This document shows, in pieces, positions 2,280-37,415 of a DNA stretch of 37,415 nucleotides (position 1 is its first letter; each line of letters starts with the position of its first letter). The notes under the pieces were generated by a model that was given only the letters and a program-made list of their open reading frames with translations, was not told the origin of the DNA and ran no database searches. The stretch covers positions 1 to 37,415 of the forward strand of contig DASYWW010000058.1 of assembly GCA_035935655.1 (NCBI GenBank), given 5' to 3'. The DNA is from Candidatus Bathyarchaeia archaeon (GTDB taxonomy: Archaea > Thermoproteota > Bathyarchaeia > 40CM-2-53-6). A program made the translations under genes and the position numbers.

Positions 2280-2590
2280 GTGGGCACCGCAACGATCCTC
2301 TCCCTCGTCATTGCTCTCTCCTTCGTCGGGGTCGCTGTTGCAGCGTCCTCGATTGGAGGAAGTTCAGGTGTCAGCATTTCAGTCAAGAGCGCGGGCCTCA
2401 TTACGGCTGCGACTTGGACTGCTCCAACTGCCGGGACGTGCACAGGCGTCCCCGGATCTTCTTTCACCTGTTCCGGAGTAGTCTTCAATAACGGAGATCA
2501 AGACTTCCTACAACTCACAGTCAAGAATAACCTCGCGTCTTCCTCGGCGACCTTCGTGCCTCAGGCCCCTGTAATTACGGAGTCTGTGCC
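2280..2590 (+). pseudogene. pilin-like secreted protein, 5' part (interrupted)
   Basis: From GTG at 2280 the frame encodes a hydrophobic N-terminal segment (ILSLVIALSFVGVAVAAS), then a Ser/Thr/Gly-rich extracellular part with a Cys pair. It reads sensibly to about PVITES and then runs into unrelated codons and a stop at 2616-2618. The matching 3' part lies at 5318-5503 in the same strand and style. The break coincides with the start of the methyltransferase cassette, so I read this as a gene split by insertion. The frame is open upstream of 2280 without another standard start. The intact protein would be roughly 160-170 residues with one N-terminal anchor. Confidence 0.7.
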
Positions 2591-2743
2591 ATGCCATATG
2601 AAGGGTGGAAGACGGTAGCTGTGCGAGATGAGGTCTATGCGAAGCTGAAGAAGAAAGCCGACAAGGAGCATCGGAGCATAACCAACATGGCCGAAGTCAT
2701 CCTGTTAGAAGCAACTGAGAAGGACGCGTCGCGGCAGACTTAA
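2591..2743 (+). CDS. ribbon-helix-helix (CopG/Arc-like) regulator
   Basis: The 50-residue product has a short strand (WKTVAVRDEVYAKLKKKA), then SITNMAEVILLEA. This matches the strand-helix-helix pattern of ribbon-helix-helix repressors, in which the strand binds DNA as a dimer. It is the first gene of the cassette and ends just before a TATA-like box and a perfect 7-bp inverted repeat preceding the methyltransferase. It may act like the controller of a restriction-modification unit or like an antitoxin. The start is close to the insertion edge, so its promoter is unclear. Confidence 0.65.
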   Translation: MPYEGWKTVAVRDEVYAKLKKKADKEHRSITNMAEVILLEATEKDASRQT

Positions 2744-2745
2744 AT
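2739..2745 (+). promoter_or_regulatory. TATA-like box for the methyltransferase gene
   Basis: CTTAAAT lies about 32 bp before the ATG at 2775. Initiation about 25 bp downstream would give a leader of only a few bases, the usual archaeal arrangement. It overlaps the end of the ribbon-helix-helix gene. Confidence 0.5.
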
Positions 2746-2768
2746 CGACGATTCCTTAGGCATCGTCG
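2746..2768. promoter_or_regulatory. inverted repeat at the methyltransferase start site (candidate operator)
   Basis: CGACGAT (2746-2752) is perfectly inverted as ATCGTCG (2762-2768) with a 9-base spacer. It lies between the TATA-like box and the start codon, where a bound dimer would block initiation. The ribbon-helix-helix protein encoded just upstream is the obvious candidate ligand. Confidence 0.5.
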
Positions 2769-2774
2769 GAGAGA

Positions 2775-4277
2775 ATGACGACCGTAGAGCCTCAGTCCCT
2801 CGTTCTCAAGGCTCTGGAAGAGGCAGGGTCGATAGGGATGGCGCCTCGGCAAATCGGCATTAAAGTTGGCCTCCCAACGCAGGAAGTCCAAGTGCTCCTC
2901 GACAGGACGAAAGAAAAGGGCACCGCCTCCATGATTGGGAGGAACCTCTGGATACTTTCGAAGAATGCCGACATCGGCCTTCAATTCGGATTCAAGACCT
3001 CCGATTCTTACCTGAAGGAGTTCGAAAGACAGTTCAAGACAAAGCTCGTTAGATATGGCGGCAAAATCACGTTCACCGAGAACGGAGACAAGAGGATACA
3101 CGGTTGGTCTCCCTGTGTCCAAGGATTCTCTTCTAGCTTTGTAAGTCAATTCCTGAAGCAGTTCGGACTCGGCAAGGAGTCTTGGGTCGCCGACCAATAT
3201 GTCGGGTCGGGGACGGTCGCAGTCTGTGCCAAGATGAAGGGCATCAACTCCATCGGCCTCGACCTCAATCCCCTGATGACCTTCATGGCGAAGAGCAAGC
3301 TCGCATGGGAGACAGACATCGAGCATCTTTTCGACAGCGGAATCGAACTTCTTGCCAGGGTCAGGGACACCGAACCATCGAAGGACTTGCCCTTCCTTAC
3401 CGAGACGGAGAGGCAGTTCGACCCACCCATCCTGAAGAACCTCCTCAAGATGAGGGCCGCGCTGTCAAAACTCCCAGAGGGCAAGACTACGCGGATGCTC
3501 TGGTTCGCCTTCGGAAGCATCTTGGTTGACTCCAGTCGATTGTGGCGAGCCCCTGGTCTCGGATATACGACCAAGCACCTCCCGCCGAATGCCCCTCAGA
3601 TATTCTTCTCTGCGAAGCTCAAGCAAATGGTGGAGGACTTGCATTACGTCCAGGCATTCAGAGAGAGATGGGGAGAGACGAAGATACTCACAGCCGACGC
3701 TCGGACATATGAGTTCGAGCCTAACAGTATGGACGCTTCGATTCAGTCTCCTCCGTATTCGAATGGCATCGATTACGTCATCAACTACAAGATAGAAGCG
3801 GCATGGCTGAACATCTTGAATTCGTATGAGGATATGGCGAAGTTGAGAGACAAAATGGTCGTTTGCGACAACGTTTCGAGAGGAGTGATAGAGGAGTTCC
3901 GCTCAGAGAAGGGGCGCGTCGAGGATGAATGGCTGACCGAGATAGTCGCCACCATAGGGGCGAACCTCGAAAGAAAGAAGATTGCGCGAAGGCCCGACAT
4001 GCATCAGGTCATTCGGAAGTATTTCGAAGACCTTTATCCGTCGCTCGAACAGGTTCATCGAGGCCTTAAGAAGAAAGCGCCTCTGGTCATGGTTCTGGGT
4101 GATTCTCTGATTTCAGGCGTCTATATCCCTACCGACATGATAGTCGCTCGGATGGCTAAGAAGGTCGGATTCAGGCTTCAGGCCTTCGAACTGGCTCGGC
4201 GCAGACGGTCGGGCCAATGGAGGGATTTCATTCTTCGCGAGACTATTCTCGTGTTGGCGAAAGAGAACTCAGCTTAG
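2775..4277 (+). CDS. amino-type DNA methyltransferase (N4-C or N6-A) with N-terminal winged helix
   Basis: The 500-residue enzyme carries the SAM-binding motif I DQYVGSGT at about residues 140-147, followed by GLDLNP. The catalytic motif IV SPPY is at 325-328. Motif I before motif IV with a PPY tetrapeptide defines an amino-methyltransferase acting on adenine N6 or cytosine N4; SPPY is frequent in N4-cytosine enzymes. Residues about 10-62 resemble a winged helix (APRQIGIKVGLPTQEVQVLL). It converges on and overlaps by 9 bp the GIY-YIG nuclease gene, so the pair is probably a type II restriction-modification system. The cassette lacks the NTGA junctions typical of the element, consistent with recent acquisition. 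The recognition site is unknown. Confidence 0.85.
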   Translation: MTTVEPQSLVLKALEEAGSIGMAPRQIGIKVGLPTQEVQVLLDRTKEKGTASMIGRNLWILSKNADIGLQFGFKTSDSYLKEFERQFKTKLVRYGGKITFTENGDKRIHGWSPCVQGFSSSFVSQFLKQFGLGKESWVADQYVGSGTVAVCAKMKGINSIGLDLNPLMTFMAKSKLAWETDIEHLFDSGIELLARVRDTEPSKDLPFLTETERQFDPPILKNLLKMRAALSKLPEGKTTRMLWFAFGSILVDSSRLWRAPGLGYTTKHLPPNAPQIFFSAKLKQMVEDLHYVQAFRERWGETKILTADARTYEFEPNSMDASIQSPPYSNGIDYVINYKIEAAWLNILNSYEDMAKLRDKMVVCDNVSRGVIEEFRSEKGRVEDEWLTEIVATIGANLERKKIARRPDMHQVIRKYFEDLYPSLEQVHRGLKKKAPLVMVLGDSLISGVYIPTDMIVARMAKKVGFRLQAFELARRRRSGQWRDFILRETILVLAKENSA

Positions 4278-5258
4278 ACGATACTTGTTGAGGTCGAGTG
4301 TTTTGAAATCAGATACATTCCAGAGCTTCTCATTTACCAAGTCGGCGTAAAGGTCGATTGCCTCCTTGCCTGGCTCAATAGGCCACAACTTACCACCTAA
4401 CCAATTTTTCAGGTCTTGAGCTGGAATCAGATAGCCTCTACCTCTTGAGATAATCAGACCACCCTTACCAGAAAAGAGGGCCTCTCTCGGTTTCGTCCTG
4501 AGGGAGAAGTGCCATCCTTTCTCTGATTTGCGGGGTTTACTGCCTGGCCTTCTGAAGTAGGTCTCCTTGTCGACCACCCATTGGTCTCGACTGACCTTGG
4601 AGACTGCGAGGTTCCTCTTTGTGAGGAGGGTCTTGACGTTGTCTTCGTTAATCTCATCGGTCGGAACTTGCTTCTTAGAAATTTGGCGAGCGATTCCAAG
4701 TTTCGAGAGAACGAAGATTAGTTCGTTGTCGAGTTGAGTCGCGATAGTCTCGACAGAGGCAGTCATCTTCGGTGGGTCTTCCTGCTTGTTTACTGGTTGG
4801 AGGATTCCGCCTTCCTTCAAATGACTGATAGTCGCTTTTTCCAGATATAATCGCAAAGTTGTGTCAGTAAAGATAGACTGGTAGTAGCTCCGCCCATCGC
4901 CGATGACGGCAATATCAGTCCAAGGCTTCGGCAATTCCTTGGGGTCTTTCTGAGTGTGGTCTCGAAGGCGTTTCCTCAGGTCGCTTGATTCTCCGACATA
5001 TGCCTTTGGCTCGCCTTCGACAGTCAGGACGTAGAGTCCGGGGTGGGTCAGTTCGCCAGCGAAGTCCTTACCGTTGATTTGGCCCAACGAAGAACGTGGG
5101 AATCGCCAAATCCGCAGTTGGCCGAGCTTTGTCCTTGACCTTGTTATGCTATCGGTATCGGGAGGGTCGTCTTCCCAGCCGTAGCCGTCCACAATGCGGA
5201 CGGCATGGTTGTGGCGTAACAAGGCGATTGGGTATCTTAAGAATGAAATCCTGAGCAT
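4269..5258 (-). CDS. GIY-YIG endonuclease, probable restriction enzyme
   Basis: The 329-residue product has the GIY-YIG core at about residues 74-101: GLYVL, then AYVGES, then LRKRLRDH with the catalytic Arg. It is followed by YLEKATISHL, which supplies the conserved Glu. The rest, about 200 residues, has no recognised domain and may set specificity. No NUMOD repeats typical of GIY-YIG homing enzymes are evident. Its 3' overlap with a methyltransferase gene argues for a type II restriction enzyme of the Eco29kI/Hpy188I kind. The ATG at 5258 fits a leaderless start about 25 bp from a TATA-like box. A homing or other nuclease role is less likely. Confidence 0.8.
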   Translation of the reverse strand: MLRISFLRYPIALLRHNHAVRIVDGYGWEDDPPDTDSITRSRTKLGQLRIWRFPRSSLGQINGKDFAGELTHPGLYVLTVEGEPKAYVGESSDLRKRLRDHTQKDPKELPKPWTDIAVIGDGRSYYQSIFTDTTLRLYLEKATISHLKEGGILQPVNKQEDPPKMTASVETIATQLDNELIFVLSKLGIARQISKKQVPTDEINEDNVKTLLTKRNLAVSKVSRDQWVVDKETYFRRPGSKPRKSEKGWHFSLRTKPREALFSGKGGLIISRGRGYLIPAQDLKNWLGGKLWPIEPGKEAIDLYADLVNEKLWNVSDFKTLDLNKYRLS

Positions 5259-5278
5259 CCAAGGAATAGCCGCGTGGG

Positions 5279-5287
5279 GGTATTAAC
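5279..5287 (-). promoter_or_regulatory. TATA-like box for the GIY-YIG gene
   Basis: On the minus strand GTTAATACC is centred about 25 bp upstream of the ATG at 5258, as expected for a leaderless archaeal transcript. It must belong to the inserted cassette, so the right cassette edge lies beyond it, between about 5288 and 5317. Confidence 0.5.
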
Positions 5288-5317
5288 AAGCCACCAACCA
5301 AGTTTAGACAGTCCGAA

Positions 5318-5503
5318 GGATTACCACTTCCAACCGTCAACTGGACAGAACCCACAGGTCTATTCATAACTTCAGGCACAACTCCTGCATCCGTAACTCT
5401 AACCGCAGGCTCTTCGACAACTGTTACCTATGTGTTCAACGTCGCAGCCGGAGCGACGGCAGAGAGCGGGATCTCAATCAGCGTTTCGATTAGCGGCCCA
5501 TAG
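5318..5503 (+). pseudogene. pilin-like secreted protein, 3' part (interrupted)
   Basis: This open frame has no start of its own. It encodes LPLPTVNWTEPTG followed by Thr/Ser/Ala-rich strands and ends SISVSISGP with TAG at 5501-5503. It matches in style the truncated secreted protein at 2280-2590. Removing the cassette would join them on the same strand. The exact joint is uncertain because the frame stays open back to about 5279. The stop lies inside the 3' end of the convergent recombinase gene (14-bp overlap). Confidence 0.65.
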
Positions 5504-6296
5504 TGGCCGCTTCCTCCTTTTTCTGACCACCCTCTCCAAACTTCCTTACGTTAGACAAGAGGGCCCAAGCCTGACGCGACGTCAGTTCGGGGAGCAGCTT
5601 CCTCAGGTTCCGAGGCTTCGCCTTCTTGAAGTTCCGGATCATATCGAGGGCAGCTCTCCCATTGTCGTCGAGCTGCAGAACTCCGTGGACTTGACAAGAG
5701 TGTGGATCGTGACCAAGTCTCAGGCAGTCCTTGGCATTGTGATCGATCCTGTAGCCGAGGGGAATCGTCCCTGAGTGTCTGCTCTTCTCCCGGGCAGTCG
5801 CGAGCCCTTCCATCGTCCTCTGCTTGGTCATGGCTGCCTCCCTCTCCGCAGCCCACGCAAGGATCAGGATCAGGAGCGATCGCATTGACCTGTCCTCAAC
5901 TTGAAGAAATGCCTCCTTCGGGGACGTCGAAACGATCGGACACTTCTCCTCGAGCTGCTTGATTATTTCGAGGATCTCCCACAGGTTGCGACCGAGCCTC
6001 GAGATCTCGTAGACCACAACATGAGTCGGGGCATTTCCGTCCCCGAGCATGCCTTCAAGTGTTTCGTAGAGATCCCTGAATCCTTCCCTCTGCAGGGGAG
6101 GCACCTTCACTCCGGAGACGTCCTTGTCGACGAACCAATCGACGACTTCGATCCCATGCTCCTTCGCATACCTCGTGATCTGTAGCCGTTGGTTGTCTTC
6201 GTCCTGCTTCCTCGTCGACACTCGGAGGTAGGCAAAAGCAATCGGACTCGCGAGCTCCTCCTCCTGTGCGATCTGCTCGATCACTTCGTCACTCAA
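5490..6296 (-). CDS. small serine recombinase (resolvase/invertase family)
   Basis: The catalytic domain begins AFAYLRVSTRKQDEDNQ with the nucleophilic Ser at about residue 27. It continues with the VVYEISRLGRN motif and the long helix AAEREAAMTKQRTMEGLA. These are diagnostic of the resolvase N-terminal domain, which cuts DNA through a phosphoserine link. The C-terminal about 100 residues begin GTIPLGYRI, contain C/H residues, and do not show an obvious classic resolvase HTH. I chose TTG at 6296 because it overlaps the stop of the small upstream gene as TTGA; a TTG at 6317 is possible. Strong inverted repeats 200-270 bp upstream are candidate crossover or operator sites. Roles may be dimer resolution, inversion or integration. 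Confidence 0.85.
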   Translation of the reverse strand: MSDEVIEQIAQEEELASPIAFAYLRVSTRKQDEDNQRLQITRYAKEHGIEVVDWFVDKDVSGVKVPPLQREGFRDLYETLEGMLGDGNAPTHVVVYEISRLGRNLWEILEIIKQLEEKCPIVSTSPKEAFLQVEDRSMRSLLILILAWAAEREAAMTKQRTMEGLATAREKSRHSGTIPLGYRIDHNAKDCLRLGHDPHSCQVHGVLQLDDNGRAALDMIRNFKKAKPRNLRKLLPELTSRQAWALLSNVRKFGEGGQKKEEAATMGR

Positions 6297-6433
6297 TGCA
6301 ACCACGTCGATAGCCAAACTCCGAGCTCATAGATCCCGACGAGCTCCACAACAAGGAGACCCCCAAGGATCGCGAAGATCTTCCATGTTTTCAATGCGAC
6401 CCTCCGCAGCACTCGCAGCCCGCACGAATACAT
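6293..6433 (-). CDS. small single-pass membrane protein
   Basis: The 46-residue product has a basic N-terminus with several Arg and Lys, one hydrophobic helix (IFAILGGLLVVELVGIY), and a short Trp-containing tail. Its TGA overlaps the TTG start of the recombinase, the same coupling seen elsewhere, which supports both starts. Other frames cover this stretch, but this one has the best protein character. Function unknown. Confidence 0.5.
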   Translation of the reverse strand: MYSCGLRVLRRVALKTWKIFAILGGLLVVELVGIYELGVWLSTWLH

Positions 6434-9399: not shown

Positions 9400-10260
9400 T
9401 TCTTCTTCGACCTCGCAGGTTTGTCGGACTTGGAGAGAATTGGGAGAGCCGCAGCCTCTTCTTCCGGAGTAGGCAGTGCCTCCGTCTCCTCAAGCCGTTT
9501 AACAGATTTGACCCACGCCTTGATTCCTCCCTCGTGATAGGCTGTAGAGGAATACATGTCGAAGTCACCCTTCCTTGTCAGGATCACTTCGAAGACAGGA
9601 TAAGGCTTTGACCCTTCTCCTTCTTCGTTGTAGTATTCGGTGATCGTCGGAAGAAGGTTGGCTTCGTCAGCGTGAGGGTGATAGAAGGGGACTCCTCGCT
9701 TGGCTACGATCGCGCCCGTGGTCAGATCAAAGCGGTCTCGGAAGAAGAGATCATATTGCAGGTGAACCGTCCAAACTGCGGAGACGCCGAGATCTGCGAG
9801 CTCGGTGAAAAGATCCGAGAAGTCCTTCGGCTCCGTAAGGTAGAGTGCCATGTCGTGTCTTGGTATGAAATCTCCTGCCGCGATCCCGTGTCTGTGGTGC
9901 CCGCGCAGATCGAACGTATCTCCTCTGTCTTCTTCAAACTCATTGTCGGGATTGTAATTGAGCGGGGTCTCGTGGTATTTCCCTCCGTGAAAAGGAAGAT
10001 CCACAGGCTCGTCTCTCTGAGCAATGTGAGCTGAAATATAGTTGTCGGCTCTCGCAAGGTAGGGCTGAATGAAGACCCCTGCGATCAGCAGCGCGAAGAC
10101 TCCGACAATCAATGCGATAATGACGGGGATCTGGATCGCCGGGTCGAGATAGATCTTGTCGAGGACTGCCGCGATTATTATGAAAACGACAGCCGGGATG
10201 ATGTAGAGGACTCCCCGGTTCCTGTGCCACCGCCCACCAAATCTCTAAGGTAGAGCTCAT
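9396..10260 (-). CDS. membrane protein with two N-terminal helices; apparent +1 frameshift
   Basis: The ATG at 10260 overlaps the LAGLIDADG stop as ATGA and reads MSSTLEIWWAVAQEPG. That frame then loses protein character. Moving +1 at the four C's at 10213-10216 (G's on the coding strand) joins it to VLYIIPAVVFIIIAAVL, a second helix IPVIIALIVGVFALLIAGVF, and a soluble His/Asp-rich domain ending in a Lys tail, 287 residues in all. A caller that needs one frame would start only at TTG 10112, inside the second helix. The shift may be an assembly or true indel, or programmed frameshifting. The soluble domain has no recognised family. Confidence 0.6.
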
Positions 10261-10772
10261 TTGGTGGCGATCGCCTCCTGCTCGGGCATCACTCCCACGA
10301 GCTGATTCCCACGATGATTGAGAGTTCTGAGCTCCCAATAGATTTCCTCTTCGCGGGGTCTCACGATACTCGGATGCGAGTCGTGAGTTCTTGGTTTCTT
10401 GATTGCGAGCCACTCCAACAGAAGATCAGCTTGTCTCTTCTTTATGACAAGTCGAGGCCCAATAAATTCAAGGACTCTCTGTGCTTCTATCTGAGAGTAA
10501 ATGACGACATGATGAACAGGCTTCCGATTGTTGCCTGTTTGATAGTTGTGAGTGTAATTGTGTTTATCTCCAAATCCAAGAATCCGCAGACAATTCTGAA
10601 TGAAGACCATATTTGTATTCGAGATTCTGACATGCGGAGCATATTGCCAAAATTCGAGACCAGGTCTCCGCGAATCTTTTCGTCTATATCTTCCGAGGAA
10701 AATGCAGCCTTCCGAATCTATGGTTCCTGCAAGCCAACCCAAATCAAATTCCGAAACGAGAGTGCTCGACAA
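10257..10772 (-). CDS. LAGLIDADG homing endonuclease, free-standing
   Basis: The 171-residue product has the LAGLIDADG motif LGWLAGTIDSEG at residues 11-22. The middle (VRISNTNMVFIQNCLRILG) is the usual continuation of a single-motif enzyme, which acts as a dimer; a second, weaker motif is not evident. It starts with TTG directly after the stop of the zinc-finger membrane gene, and its stop overlaps the next ATG. It therefore sits exactly between two operon genes without an intron or intein. Base composition is a little more A/T-rich than its neighbours, consistent with mobility. Confidence 0.85.
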   Translation of the reverse strand: MSSTLVSEFDLGWLAGTIDSEGCIFLGRYRRKDSRRPGLEFWQYAPHVRISNTNMVFIQNCLRILGFGDKHNYTHNYQTGNNRKPVHHVVIYSQIEAQRVLEFIGPRLVIKKRQADLLLEWLAIKKPRTHDSHPSIVRPREEEIYWELRTLNHRGNQLVGVMPEQEAIATK

Positions 10773-11522
10773 CTACTTCGCCTCCATGAAGTAGGTCTCG
10801 ATCATTGTCTGTGCGAAATCCTCAGGGGGAAGACTATCGAAGAGAGTGTCAAGCTCGTAGGAGTGCGTCCTGATATGTGCGAGCAGCTCGAACCAACCTG
10901 TTCTGTTTGAAGTGGTGACGTAGGGACAGAGTTTGCATTTGATCGTCCCCATAACAGGAGGAGCCGAGGGAGTTGCACCCTCAGAACCCGGCCCGCTCGT
11001 CGTTGACTGAGCGGTCGTGGCAGTCTGAGACCCGGGCCCCGTCTCTGACTTGGCTCCGGGCTCTCGTGTTGTCAGCTTGGTCTTCAGTCTTGCTAATCGC
11101 GATCTGAATCCTGTTGTTGCCTTGGCCTCAGTTTCCGGTCGTATGGATTCAACCGGACGGTGCGATCGATAATACATGATCACCAATCTCACCGTCAAGA
11201 CTTCGGCCAAGACAACCATGATTCCGACAAAGGTGAATCTGTATCCCGTCAAAGTCCCGGGGTAGGTAATGATCCAATAGATCGCGCTGTAGATCTGAAA
11301 CTCTGACGACGCGGGAACGAGAGGTGCGAGAACCAATGCAGCAATCGAGAGGACTGCAGCAACAGGGACGACGAGGATCACGATCAGGAATTTCCGAAGT
11401 CCCTGAGTCTCTCTGAGAGTGTGGGGGTGCTTCATCTCAGCCTTGTCCTTGTTGCTTCTCATTGTCGGCATACCCAAAGGTTGCTGACGTCCGTCCTTGG
11501 GGTGATCTTCTTTCTTAGCCAT
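10773..11522 (-). CDS. two-TM membrane protein with C-terminal C2H2 zinc finger
   Basis: The 249-residue product has a charged N-terminus and two hydrophobic helices at about residues 44-67 and 93-118. A Ser/Thr/Gly/Pro-rich linker follows, then IKCKLCPYVTTSNRTGWF with HIRTH, a C2H2-like finger with about 16 residues between the Cys and His pairs. The ATG at 11522 is chosen because it overlaps the previous stop by 8 bp; a start at 11636 would overlap far more. A membrane-anchored zinc finger could tether DNA or protein at the membrane, fitting with the ATPase further along the operon. No exact family recognised. Confidence 0.65.
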   Translation of the reverse strand: MAKKEDHPKDGRQQPLGMPTMRSNKDKAEMKHPHTLRETQGLRKFLIVILVVPVAAVLSIAALVLAPLVPASSEFQIYSAIYWIITYPGTLTGYRFTFVGIMVVLAEVLTVRLVIMYYRSHRPVESIRPETEAKATTGFRSRLARLKTKLTTREPGAKSETGPGSQTATTAQSTTSGPGSEGATPSAPPVMGTIKCKLCPYVTTSNRTGWFELLAHIRTHSYELDTLFDSLPPEDFAQTMIETYFMEAK

Positions 11523-12123
11523 AGACTCTCGATTCCTTGTTAGCGGTCTTTGTTGACTCTTCGAGTTCATGCCTTGTCTCCACGATCTTCTCAAGCACGG
11601 GTGCCCGCTTCGGTATGATCCATACTTCGGCGTCATGAGCGATCAGCCCCTCCGTCACCATTTCAGCGATCATGTCAGGATTTGTGATCCCAATGACCTT
11701 GGTCGATCCATCGTCGAAGGGAAGCAGCTCTCTCCCGTCCTTCAGGTATACCCTCCGTTTCGAACCTTCGAAATAGATACTCGCAATATCGAATCGGTAG
11801 GAGAGATCCTCCCACCTGTCATTGGCTTTCTTCCAAGTCTCGCGGAGCTTCTCAATTAATTTCACGTCCGAATACCTCTCAATCTGCTTTCGCCCTTTTC
11901 CATGCAGCCTTATCCCTTCAGACATATTCTTCTTCTTATGACATGATTCGCAGAGGACTTGAATATTCGAAATCTCATGCTTCCCTCCACTCTGCAATGC
12001 GATTTTATGGTCGAAATTGAAAGGGCCTTCCACAGTCCCACAGTCGACGCATTTCCTTCCAAAGAGACTGAATAGGAGATCAGCATTAGATCCTCGCTTG
12101 GCAGAATCCGTCCCATTTAGCAC
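11515..12123 (-). CDS. HNH endonuclease
   Basis: The 202-residue product has the classic HNH core: KCVDCG, then FNFDHKIAL, then NIQVLCESCHKKK, giving two zinc CxxC pairs, the catalytic DH and the final Asn/His. The C-terminal half (SYRFDIASIYFEGSKRRVYL and on) is of unknown fold and may bind DNA. I chose GTG at 12123 because it lies where a transcript from the shared TATA-like box at 12155-12162 should begin; a GTG at 12174 would precede that start. It heads the minus-strand operon and overlaps the next gene by 8 bp. Confidence 0.8.
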   Translation of the reverse strand: MLNGTDSAKRGSNADLLFSLFGRKCVDCGTVEGPFNFDHKIALQSGGKHEISNIQVLCESCHKKKNMSEGIRLHGKGRKQIERYSDVKLIEKLRETWKKANDRWEDLSYRFDIASIYFEGSKRRVYLKDGRELLPFDDGSTKVIGITNPDMIAEMVTEGLIAHDAEVWIIPKRAPVLEKIVETRHELEESTKTANKESRVYG

Positions 12124-12154
12124 CCCAATCCGGGCGCTCCTTGAGCCCAACCAT

Positions 12155-12162
12155 GTTATAAG
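12155..12162. promoter_or_regulatory. TATA-like box shared by divergent promoters
   Basis: GTTATAAG reads as CTTATAAC on the other strand, so it can serve both directions. Initiation about 25-30 bp away fits the ATG at 12191 on the plus strand and GTG 12123 on the minus strand. It would drive the surface module on one side and the ATPase operon on the other. Confidence 0.55.
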
Positions 12163-12190
12163 AACAATCCTCACAGGTCACGACTAACGC

Positions 12191-16182: not shown

Positions 16183-16404
16183 TTGAAGGACATAAGTCCG
16201 ATCACAACGGGAGGATTATTCCTGAGCGTAGTCAGTCTCACACTTCTTCTCCTCGGGTTTCAATTCTCTGCCCTGTCATTCTGCGCGGGATACATGCTGT
16301 TGGGCTTCTGCGTCGGACTGACTGTCAACTACACTTGGGTCGTTTGGACAGTCCTGTTGATCGTGGGAGCTTTCATAGTCGTCTTCTCGAGGCGACGGAG
16401 ATAG
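16183..16404 (+). CDS. small polytopic membrane protein
   Basis: TTG at 16183 follows the previous stop directly. The 73-residue product is almost entirely hydrophobic, with about three helices (GLFLSVVSLTLLLLGF, LSFCAGYMLLGFCVGL, VVWTVLLIVGAFIVVF), and ends in four Arg. Its 3' end overlaps the convergent HNH gene by 32 bp, which suggests the HNH gene arrived later. Function unknown. Confidence 0.6.
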   Translation: MKDISPITTGGLFLSVVSLTLLLLGFQFSALSFCAGYMLLGFCVGLTVNYTWVVWTVLLIVGAFIVVFSRRRR

Positions 16405-16762
16405 TTGAGGGCTTGACATGAGGACAGATTCCATCCTGACCCGGTCTGTCTCTGCCAAAATTGCAGTTGTAACAAAGAAGTCTCAGCTCTTTCGGAAAAC
16501 CATGCGATATCGCATACTGCCAAAGATCACTTCCGTGGTGTTGGATTCTCTTATTGGCTGGATCAGAATGGTCGAGCGTCAGGAAAGCGAGTTCATTCAC
16601 TCCACAGCACGAACATCTCCCTGCATAAGCGAGGAGGATTTCGCGCCTCAATTTAGCCCGGTGTTTCGCTTCGTGGTTTTTGAAATAGTAAGGATGATTT
16701 CTACGATATTCTGCAACACGGGTTCTTGCTTTTTGTCTGCGTTGCTCATCAGCAATTACCAC
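16373..16762 (-). CDS. HNH endonuclease, free-standing
   Basis: The 129-residue product has a basic helical N-terminus, then CSCCG, FLTLDHSDP, and LRLLCYNCNFG, a full HNH core with zinc CxxC pairs, the DH and the final Asn. The spacing with HGFPKE before the last strand matches a family common in phages, to which the gene at 32863 also belongs. The GTG start sits about 25 bp from a TATA-like box, so the message is leaderless. It lies against the direction of the surface genes, typical of a mobile free-standing homing gene. Confidence 0.8.
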   Translation of the reverse strand: MVIADEQRRQKARTRVAEYRRNHPYYFKNHEAKHRAKLRREILLAYAGRCSCCGVNELAFLTLDHSDPANKRIQHHGSDLWQYAISHGFPKELRLLCYNCNFGRDRPGQDGICPHVKPSTISVASRRRL

Positions 16763-19455: not shown

Positions 19456-19904
19456 GATCACCATTGAGATCAAAGATTGTCCATATTAACCACTTCCTGC
19501 TGTCCTTCGGTTCGTTGGGTTCCCATATCCCACTCTCCAAAAACGAATGGAATAAACATCTCCTCGAAAGATTTTGGTCGAAAGTCAGGAAGGATGATAG
19601 TGGCTGTTGGATTTGGACAGGTGCGAAATCATCATATGGATATGGTGTCTTAATCGGACATGCAGGTGAAAAATTAATTCTCGCCCACAGACTTTCCTAT
19701 AGTCTTGCTAACGGTTCGATTCCTGATTGGATTCCGGGGGGATTCGAATTGGATCATCTTTGCCGGAACAGAATTTGTGTGAATCCGAATCATTTGGAAC
19801 TCGTGAGTCAAAGGGAAAATCTCGCACGAGGAACTAATTGGATCGCGGAACGAATCCGACCCAAATCAGTAAATATCGAGCATGTGAGAGGAGTGACGCA
19901 GTAG
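19452..19904 (+). CDS. HNH homing endonuclease (HNH_3-type), free-standing
   Basis: The 150-residue product has the WSKV...CWIWTG start and then FELDHLCRNRICVNPNHLEL, the classic HNH_3 core of phage homing enzymes, with SQRENLARG after it. The GTG at 19452 overlaps the previous stop, so the gene has been fitted into the operon. Its codons are visibly more A/T-rich than those of its neighbours, a sign of separate origin. Confidence 0.85.
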   Translation: MRSPLRSKIVHINHFLLSFGSLGSHIPLSKNEWNKHLLERFWSKVRKDDSGCWIWTGAKSSYGYGVLIGHAGEKLILAHRLSYSLANGSIPDWIPGGFELDHLCRNRICVNPNHLELVSQRENLARGTNWIAERIRPKSVNIEHVRGVTQ

Positions 19905-32341: not shown

Positions 32342-32866
32342 CCTTGGAAAAATGGAGTCTCACTCGCAATCGCGACAACCCATCTGATCTACAACGTAGA
32401 CGCCCGGAATCTGAAAATCGTCAATGGCAACGGCAGCCTCGGATCTCTCTCGGCTACTCTAATGGTGAATGGATCACTCGATTCAGCCATGCACATCAAC
32501 AACTTCAATATCAGAACCTTGCGACTCAACTCGACAGCTTACAAAGTCGAAGTCTTCGTCGGCCACGTTGATCTCCTCGAGGGCAAATATTTCCAATCAC
32601 AACTCGCGAATACAGGGCCTTCGATTGCGGGACTTGGCGTAGTCTCCTTCGACAATCTGAATTTTGCTTTCGCGTATAATTGCCTGACGGGACGGATCGG
32701 CTATCTCGCGTCTGCCAACACCTCAATCTTCTCCCTCGCCAAAATTGCACAGGGCACAGCAATCGCAGAGATCGAGCGATCGTTAGGACGCAGCTCGATC
32801 TCCTCCCCTTTTTCCGTATTACGCTCGGTCAATCTTTTCAGAGTTGAGGAGGCAATGACAATTTGA
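32342..32866 (+). pseudogene. 3' remnant of a secreted or membrane-linked beta protein
   Basis: The frame has no standard start before ATG 32462. It is protein-like from about WKNGVSLAIATTHL onward, with alternating strands (LKIVNGNGSLGSLSATLMV, LNSTAYKVEVFVGHVDLLEG), and ends at a TGA overlapped by the next TTG. The 5' part seems to have been lost or separated by the second insertion. The strand pattern loosely recalls LEA14/WHy-type domains, but I hold this weakly. A re-started short form from ATG 32462 is possible. Confidence 0.45.
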
Positions 32867-33366
32867 AGACAATCAATCCCAATTCGCTGAATCAACAGTC
32901 ACTCCGCATGGGCAAACACAGAAACTATCTCGCAGGCAAAAAGTGGAAGGAAAGAAATCACGAGAAAAGGAATGCACAACACAGGCGAACTATTGAACGT
33001 CTGCGATTAGAAGCTCTTCATGCCTACGGGAGAAACTTCCCAATCTGCGAATGTTGTAGTGAGTCAAATCCAAAGTTTCTGACCCTGTCTCATCCGGACG
33101 GAGACGGACGCATTCAACGTAAAAGCGTGGTCATTGGAGGCAAGAACAAAGGTGGGGTTGCATTTTACAGAGCTCTTAGACGTCTTGGATTCCCAAAGAA
33201 TTTCAGAATCCTCATTGAATGCTTTAACTGCAACATTGGGGCGACAGCAAACGGAGGAGTCTGCCCTCATAAAACTGTTACGCTCGGGATCCCTAATCCG
33301 GGCGAGCTGAAGGCAAAAGGTAACAGTCCCAACCTTCTGCCTCCGGCCCCGGCGAAGGAGGACTAA
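32863..33366 (+). CDS. HNH endonuclease family protein, altered DH motif
   Basis: TTG overlaps the previous stop. The 167-residue product has a basic helical N-terminus, CECCSES, FLTLSHPDG, and ILIECFNCNIG with the RRLGFPKN step before it. It is in the same HNH family as the minus-strand gene at 16373. Ser replaces Asp before the first His (LSH instead of LDH), which may reduce activity. The C-terminus is Pro-rich. The following ATG is directly after its stop. Confidence 0.75.
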   Translation: MKTINPNSLNQQSLRMGKHRNYLAGKKWKERNHEKRNAQHRRTIERLRLEALHAYGRNFPICECCSESNPKFLTLSHPDGDGRIQRKSVVIGGKNKGGVAFYRALRRLGFPKNFRILIECFNCNIGATANGGVCPHKTVTLGIPNPGELKAKGNSPNLLPPAPAKED

Positions 33367-34985: not shown

Positions 34986-35156
34986 ATGACTCTACCCGAA
35001 CATTGCTCGAAGAGGGACTGCAGGGAAAAGGCGACGATTATCTTGATCGAAGTCGAAGCGGTCAACGAAGCCGGGGACGTCGAGATTACCACTTTTGGAT
35101 TCTGCAGCTATGACCACCTGTCAATGTGGCTCCGCGACGGTGAAAGATACAAATGA
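34986..35156 (+). CDS. small zinc-binding protein
   Basis: The 56-residue product has HCSKRDCREKA near the N-terminus and FGFCSYDHLSMWL near the end, a C-x4-C plus C-x3-H zinc site, with beta strands between. It resembles the gene at 26703. The ATG of the HNH gene overlaps its stop. Confidence 0.6.
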   Translation: MTLPEHCSKRDCREKATIILIEVEAVNEAGDVEITTFGFCSYDHLSMWLRDGERYK

Positions 35157-35524
35157 AGGAAATAGACAATCAAGATTATCGAAGAATTGTCGTCGCACTT
35201 CTTGGAACAAGGTGCTCCTTCTGCGGATCGACAAAGGCCCTCCAAATTGATCATATCCTTCCGCTCAGTAGAGGGGGATCAAACGAAGCTACTAATCTGA
35301 GACTTCTCTGTAAAAATTGCCATTTTATCCGGCATCTTCAAGACGGGACTTTCGCTCCGGGGCTCAAAAAGGCAGGAGAACGATCAGCCCCCCACCCCTT
35401 ACTTTCTACTGTTTCCACTCGAAACTCGAGGCTCGAATGGGACGATCGAACGGAAAGAAAATTCCGATCAAATCCTAAGGCTTCCTCAGCAACTCGCGCG
35501 TTTCTCAGGAGGTTTCCACCTTGA
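35153..35524 (+). CDS. HNH endonuclease
   Basis: ATG overlaps the previous stop. The 123-residue product has a textbook HNH core: CSFCGS, LQIDHILPLSRGG, NLRLLCKNCHFIRH. The C-terminal 45 residues are basic and Ser-rich. It is the most standard HNH protein on the element. Its TGA is overlapped by the TTG of another HNH-like gene. Confidence 0.85.
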   Translation: MKEIDNQDYRRIVVALLGTRCSFCGSTKALQIDHILPLSRGGSNEATNLRLLCKNCHFIRHLQDGTFAPGLKKAGERSAPHPLLSTVSTRNSRLEWDDRTERKFRSNPKASSATRAFLRRFPP

Positions 35525-36312
35525 AGGATTTTCGTAGATCTGATGACGATGATCGCGAGCAGCATTTCGTCGAATCACTCAAGGGCCCTATCGACTTGGT
35601 CAAGGCTCAGATCTTCACGATCCAGATCACTCGAAGAAAGAAGACTTGGAACGTGACGCTCGGCCCCGACAACATTGCCAACTTCGACTCCGACGGAAGG
35701 ATCCAAGGTTTTCGCAGACAGATCGTCGTGAAGTATCTACTGAAAAGGGATGGGAACCATTGCATGATCAGGAGCCCTTTCTGCCTGATGGGAGACAATC
35801 CCTTCGAGAATCCAATGGGTGCGACGATCGATCATATTCAACTCGCTCCTCAGGGTCAGGATCCGGATCAGCACTTCCGCAATCTGAGGCTCGCCTGCTC
35901 ACCATGCAATGCACACTATCAGAAGGTTCAACGTCTCCAATGGAAATCTAATCTTGCAGTCACAGGCACCTTAGATAGAGAGAAAATCCCGCGCACACAC
36001 AGACACGCAAAGCTCTCCGACTTGGACAAGGAAAGGGCCTCTGCGGAGATCAAGATCAACCTCGACATTTACCCCGTCTTCTGCAGGTGGTTGAAAGACG
36101 AGATCGACGAGAAGCAGGAGATCACGGTCGACCACGCAATCTCAGGTGGAGCGAAATACATGAGGAAGAAGTGCGGCTACGGATCTGTGCAGAGCTCGAG
36201 GGCCTACCTCAAAATGGAGACGTCGGAGGAAGGCAATTTCGTGATCGTCGAAGGAATGGTGAGACGAAGGGAGAAGAAGGCCAAGGTCGTCAAGGAGGCC
36301 CGAATTGCTTAA
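35521..36312 (+). CDS. larger HNH endonuclease-like protein
   Basis: TTG overlaps the previous stop. The 263-residue product has an acidic start, a basic strand region (FTIQITRRKKTWNVTLG), and CMIRSPFC with ATIDHIQLAP and LRLACSPCNAHYQ, an HNH core with a wider first Cys pair. About 130 more residues follow, including YPVFCRWLKDE and a basic end, possibly a DNA-binding domain. Two HNH genes in tandem overlap are unusual. It may be a homing or defence nuclease. Confidence 0.75.
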   Translation: MKDFRRSDDDDREQHFVESLKGPIDLVKAQIFTIQITRRKKTWNVTLGPDNIANFDSDGRIQGFRRQIVVKYLLKRDGNHCMIRSPFCLMGDNPFENPMGATIDHIQLAPQGQDPDQHFRNLRLACSPCNAHYQKVQRLQWKSNLAVTGTLDREKIPRTHRHAKLSDLDKERASAEIKINLDIYPVFCRWLKDEIDEKQEITVDHAISGGAKYMRKKCGYGSVQSSRAYLKMETSEEGNFVIVEGMVRRREKKAKVVKEARIA

Positions 36313-37162: not shown

Positions 37163-37362
37163 CTAACATTCGAAATATTTCAGACGACGAAAAAACCAAA
37201 TGCGTAAGCTGTGGACGTCACCTATCAAATCACGAACGCGGTCAACTCCTCTGTTGGCCCTGCGAACGGCATTATCGGAGGACAATGCTCGGACAAGACT
37301 GCCAATGCCCTGTCTATTGTGAACTGTGCAACATGCCTCCAATGGAAACTCCGAAGCTATGA
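37159..37362 (+). CDS. small Cys-rich zinc protein across the circular join
   Basis: TTG overlaps the previous stop. The 67-residue product has CVSCGRHLSNH, LLCWPCERH and CQCPVYCELC, enough for two or three zinc sites. On the circle its TGA overlaps the ATG of the HNH-like gene (positions 85-88). Its last part is repeated at 1-88. Confidence 0.65.
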   Translation: MTNIRNISDDEKTKCVSCGRHLSNHERGQLLCWPCERHYRRTMLGQDCQCPVYCELCNMPPMETPKL

Positions 37363-37415
37363 CCAACGACAGGAACCGACTCGCGAAGAAACAACGAGAG
37401 AATCTAATCAAGAAA
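37275..37415. repeat. terminal direct repeat, right copy (circular join)
   Basis: It is identical to 1-141. See the left copy: it marks closure of a 37,274-bp circle. Confidence 0.95.
37359..37415 (+). CDS. 5' end of HNH-like gene (copy of 85-141)
   Basis: The first 19 codons of the HNH-like protein are seen again here because of the overlap. The full gene is at 85-459. Confidence 0.85.
   Translation, partial: MTNDRNRLAKKQRENLIKK

Follow-up and report, generated by a model that had tools for sequence, protein, structure and literature searches.

In Type II restriction-modification (R-M) systems, a methyltransferase protects the DNA and a nuclease cuts DNA that is left unprotected; when carried on a mobile element, such a system restricts competing DNA and makes loss of the element costly. 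Type II systems with GIY-YIG endonucleases include Eco29kI, Hpy188I and the DraI system (PMC1952068, PMC2630997, PMC10855626). R-M systems are known to move between genomes, and one demonstrated case of movement within a genome was linked to an IS element (PMC3031569).

The stretch of DNA analysed here (the window, 37,415 nucleotides from a Bathyarchaeia archaeon) carries a cassette of this general kind. As in the Eco29kI, Hpy188I and DraI systems, a GIY-YIG nuclease appears to work with a modification enzyme, and in the DraI system the partner is an alpha-class N4-cytosine methyltransferase. The window nuclease is larger than those of the described systems, however, with an extra C-terminal region, and a ribbon-helix-helix (RHH) gene has been added; at the sequence level the nuclease matches no solved chain at E < 0.4. 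The PADLOC defence models call the methyltransferase as Type II (1.4e-41) and the nuclease as the defence candidate PDC-S14 (1.2e-11). The PDC-S label denotes single-gene candidates, whereas the window gene has a methyltransferase partner. An N4-cytosine methyltransferase of Haloarcula virus HJTV-2 is 26% identical over 74% of the window methyltransferase, but this enzyme is viral and more distant than the family described below. What is new here is that this methyltransferase and this nuclease belong together as a pair, in a convergent, rearranged version of a type of system already known.

Our reading is that a Type II R-M module with an RHH regulator probably sits in, and has inactivated, a small secreted-protein gene on a circular extrachromosomal element of 37,274 bp. 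We infer a recognition-and-cutting activity, a regulatory role and a benefit to the element. Acting on one short motif in the DNA of element and host, the methyltransferase would add its mark, probably to N4 of cytosine, and any copy without the mark would be open to cutting by the nuclease. Restriction of incoming DNA would follow, as would a penalty for cells losing the element, and the RHH protein would tune expression.

The circular element and its genes

The window is an entire contig (C58 of genome G000) from a 2.5-Mb multi-contig genome bin. Comparison of its ends revealed a 141-base perfect direct terminal repeat (positions 1-141 and 37275-37415), and because the ends are identical the contig is read as a circular molecule opened by the assembler. 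The element is taken to be a plasmid or virus-like, based on a ParB-like helix-turn-helix gene, a HerA-type ATPase, a topoisomerase-like gene, large secreted proteins and a serine recombinase. Relatives of the element sought by way of its ATPases and topoisomerase were limited to distant matches in other genomes, and viral contigs gave none. Bathyarchaeia are abundant and uncultured, and the papers searched say little about extrachromosomal elements in this lineage, with no description of Bathyarchaeia plasmids among them. The window provides a complete Type II R-M-like module on a circular element of this lineage.

Homing-type nuclease genes are numerous for 37 kb, with four of the HNH type and one LAGLIDADG gene just under the cutoff (Table 1). 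Three further frames (52-459, 16373-16762 and 32863-33366) look HNH-like by eye, without a Pfam match.

Table 1. Positions of the cassette, its flanks and other features of the element, numbered along the window
Feature	Position	Strand	Remarks
Putative 5' part of secreted-protein gene	2280..2590	+	GTG start 2280; N-terminus Sec-like by eye
RHH putative regulator, 50 aa (RHH_5/VapB-like)	2591..2743	+	Pfam RHH_5, 9e-5
DNA methyltransferase, 500 aa	2775..4277	+	N6_N4_Mtase, 2e-6; motif I then SPPY
GIY-YIG nuclease	4269..5258	-	PF01541, 3e-5 (above cutoff); convergent with methyltransferase, 9-base overlap
Zone expected to hold right joint	5193..5317	.	Right joint between 5193 and ~5318
Putative 3' part, open frame	5270..5503	+	Recognisable from ~5318; ends with TAG at 5501-5503
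Serine recombinase (resolvase/invertase type)	5490..6317	-	Backbone gene adjoining the insertion; convergent with and overlapping the 3' part
Homing-type genes (four HNH, one LAGLIDADG)	10257-10772, 11515-12174, 19473-19904, 35153-35524, 35521-36312		

The methyltransferase-nuclease pair and its family

The initial annotation placed a cassette of regulator, methyltransferase and GIY-YIG nuclease between two secreted-type frames, and all of these parts are where it located them. Downstream of the RHH gene, after a gap of 31 bases, comes the methyltransferase, which has the two hallmarks of a Type II enzyme, a SAM-binding motif I and a catalytic (S/N/D)PPY motif. In the family alignment, D140, G144, G146 and T147 and the motif S325-P-P-Y328 are invariant, and the predicted fold matches SAM-dependent methyltransferases; an extra N-terminal stretch is predicted at low confidence, leaving its fold uncertain. 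Because the motif is SPPY and the motifs occur in the alpha order, the target is probably N4-cytosine.

The nuclease likewise has the GIY...YIG strands together with the Arg and Glu characteristic of its class, and Y76, Y87, G89, R97 and E140 are conserved in the family. Its fold search gave no match at E <= 0.001, and the only GIY-YIG fold matches, including the I-TevI catalytic domain, were weak. Homology to the family begins at GTG 5192 and not at ATG 5258, suggesting that the GTG is the likelier start.

Early protein searches returned distant methyltransferases only. The family was reached by scanning the class with the PDC-S14 model, which picked out a second Bathyarchaeia genome (G196), and an alignment of the two methyltransferases then led to 50 loci, of which 49 came from genome contigs and the remaining one from viral contigs. 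G196 has homologues of both genes next to each other (locus L075, identical to L112), their products being 36% (methyltransferase, E 1e-93) and 31% (nuclease, E 3e-34) identical to the window proteins. A separate endonuclease gene is linked to the methyltransferase, as expected for Type II R-M, in the window and in 43 of the 50 related loci (from bacteria, ANME-1 and one other Bathyarchaeia genome); since the loci were collected via the methyltransferase, this count tells how regularly the methyltransferase is accompanied by the nuclease, and not how regularly the nuclease is accompanied by the methyltransferase. In four other loci the contig ends at the methyltransferase (L122, L126, L127) or soon after it (L128), and three loci truly lack the nuclease (L116, L120, L131). 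The family as a whole retains motif I, SPPY and the catalytic residues of the GIY-YIG domain, and the PDC-S14 models match the nuclease and its homologues (best 1e-14 among the homologues).

The occurrence of the same two genes side by side across many phyla, in dozens of unrelated genomes, bears out the initial assignment to restriction-modification and argues firmly that the methyltransferase and nuclease are a real R-M-type pair. Both close nuclease homologues found in Bathyarchaeia have the methyltransferase beside them. The literature searched contained no description of this R-M family, and the association suggests a function for the PDC-S14 nuclease, which in this branch would be half of a two-gene restriction system. 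The pair was present in only two of 257 Bathyarchaeia genomes (that of the window and G196), and for this reason it probably moves horizontally.

The window pair is nevertheless a relative and not a regular member of this family, because its two genes are convergent whereas in all 37 loci where both genes are near full length they lie head-to-tail on one strand, methyltransferase first, with gaps of -125 to +15 nt. The head-to-tail pairs come from Chloroflexota, Planctomycetota, Nitrospirota, Bacteroidota and ANME-1 (L082-L130), and both window proteins are homologous to theirs over most of their length and share the catalytic residues. In addition to its convergent arrangement, the window pair differs by the added RHH gene and the N-terminal extension of the methyltransferase. 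Its best identities to the family are 39% for the methyltransferase and 31% for the nuclease, whereas the nearest kin of other members are about 82% and 79% identical (medians), and in the tree the window pair is on a long branch of uncertain place. No RHH gene was found beside the pair at any other locus examined, and the idea that this gene is a fixed part of the module was accordingly rejected. A more ambitious proposal, which we regard as unlikely, is that the window pair represents a deep, rearranged branch of two-gene R-M systems, with its nuclease flipped into the convergent orientation under an RHH regulator, that passes from one archaeal extrachromosomal element to another by disrupting genes, with no transposase involved.

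One of the three loci without a nuclease is the viral contig (IMG/VR; L131, 5731-7681), where the gene next to the methyltransferase has a nuclease-like start (RHIRSWEI) and then continues with unrelated sequence, a pattern that resembles loss of the nuclease by deletion. The other two are from Anaerolineales (L116, 4208-5602, and L120, 5578-6972), and the L116 methyltransferase is flanked by apparent sugar-nucleotide and surface-polysaccharide genes.

The frames on either side of the cassette

The 5' frame stays open to 2615, continuing into the cassette, with its stop at 2616-2618. Its N-terminus is hydrophobic and, judged by eye, Sec-like. The 3' frame runs for 77 codons without a stop, and ATG, GTG and TTG are all absent from it before 5432 (codon 55), which excludes a stand-alone gene of this size beginning at a conventional start codon. 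The 3' segment ranks first in likeness to the element's other secreted proteins (0.27, with the next at 0.14) among the 376 stop-to-stop segments outside listed genes, and the 5' part scores 0.36 on the same measure of amino-acid composition; among sliding windows of the size of the 3' segment, 34 of 2,020 score as high. The codon score of the 3' part is the best of the six frames, yet near zero (-0.03), and coding bias alone is therefore no proof that it is coding.

Taken from these frames, the 3' part is probably the stranded 3' end of a secreted-protein gene. A 5' part with a Sec-like signal and a start-less 3' part of secreted-type composition flank the cassette, and a split gene is thus the simplest reading, as the initial annotation had proposed. 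We infer that the two parts were once one gene and that the cassette was likely inserted in it.

The intact relative that the annotation hoped to find did not appear in 151 related genomes, viral contigs, phages, genome contigs or plasmids, nor did relatives of either part in the same collections, and the arrangement that would have spoken against the annotation, with the two parts as separate genes lacking the cassette, was not seen either. A counterpart of the split gene was absent from the loci with the distant ATPase and topoisomerase matches (L050-L054). Weak matches spanning the joint were judged to be chance. A profile made from the repeats of a distant protein found the two parts in the right order, weakly and below significance, and the joined protein did no better against it than one with a shuffled 3' part. 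Pfam gave no significant family match across the joint and no pilin family match. An archaeal type IV pilin would be expected to have a class III signal peptide as well as such a match, and the description of the gene as pilin-like is loose; the evidence goes no further than a secreted product, perhaps of Ig/Fn3-like type.

The missing intact relative and the lack of a family match across the joint would also fit a history in which the frames come from two different genes: the 5' frame would be a short gene with a trimmed end, and the 3' frame the tail of another gene lost by deletion or rearrangement as the cassette entered, for which the adjacent serine recombinase offers a means. We consider this unlikely, because the two parts are similar in composition, collinear on one strand and of sizes that fit one small secreted protein, and because a single gene requires no second lost gene.

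Expression and entry of the cassette

Four-base NTGA overlaps occur eight times among the other genes of the element and never in the cassette, in agreement with the initial annotation. Its proposal that the cassette has promoters of its own finds weak support, in that each of the three genes of the cassette is preceded by a box-A-like site with 6/8 matches (background 3.7% each); the site for the nuclease counts only if ATG 5258 is the start. The idea of a recent acquisition is not supported by composition. The G+C content and codon usage of the cassette match the rest of the element, the codon score of the methyltransferase (0.22) falling within the range of the backbone genes (0.12-0.42) and that of the nuclease (0.08) somewhat lower, and on this basis the acquisition need not be recent, although neither remnant has yet gained a stop codon.

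The left joint of the cassette is at or before 2591. The joints were to be checked for a target duplication, and their direct comparison gave nothing above shuffles; mobile-element ends and terminal inverted repeats, as would accompany a transposon-borne insertion, were also absent from the joints. An intron was considered and rejected, since the window has no Rfam match and genes on both strands argue against it. Entry of the cassette into the secreted-protein gene by way of the adjacent serine recombinase or by homing-type copying is possible, and the locus is a specific example in which to study the arrival of restriction modules in mobile DNA when no transposase is involved.

In the strict form of homing, the GIY-YIG nuclease would itself have cut the intact secreted-protein gene, the cassette would have been copied into the break, and the methyltransferase would now shield the cut site. 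An insertion without target duplication fits such an event, as do the wealth of HNH and LAGLIDADG homing-type genes on the element and the weak resemblance to the I-TevI catalytic domain among the sole GIY-YIG fold matches. However, homing genes normally travel without a modification enzyme, and the fixed methyltransferase partner in 43 of the 50 loci is typical of restriction and not of homing, making this explanation quite improbable. Wrong fusion of two DNA molecules in the metagenome, which might be raised for a single-copy contig from a multi-contig bin read here from the assembly alone, is scarcely credible given that the contig closes cleanly on itself and that the cassette matches the rest in codon usage and G+C content.

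The gene-poor region 1911-2101 contains nested inverted repeats, with arms at 1962-1981/2080-2099 (90%) and 1911-1928/2084-2101 (89%). These are possibly a site of replication or recombination.
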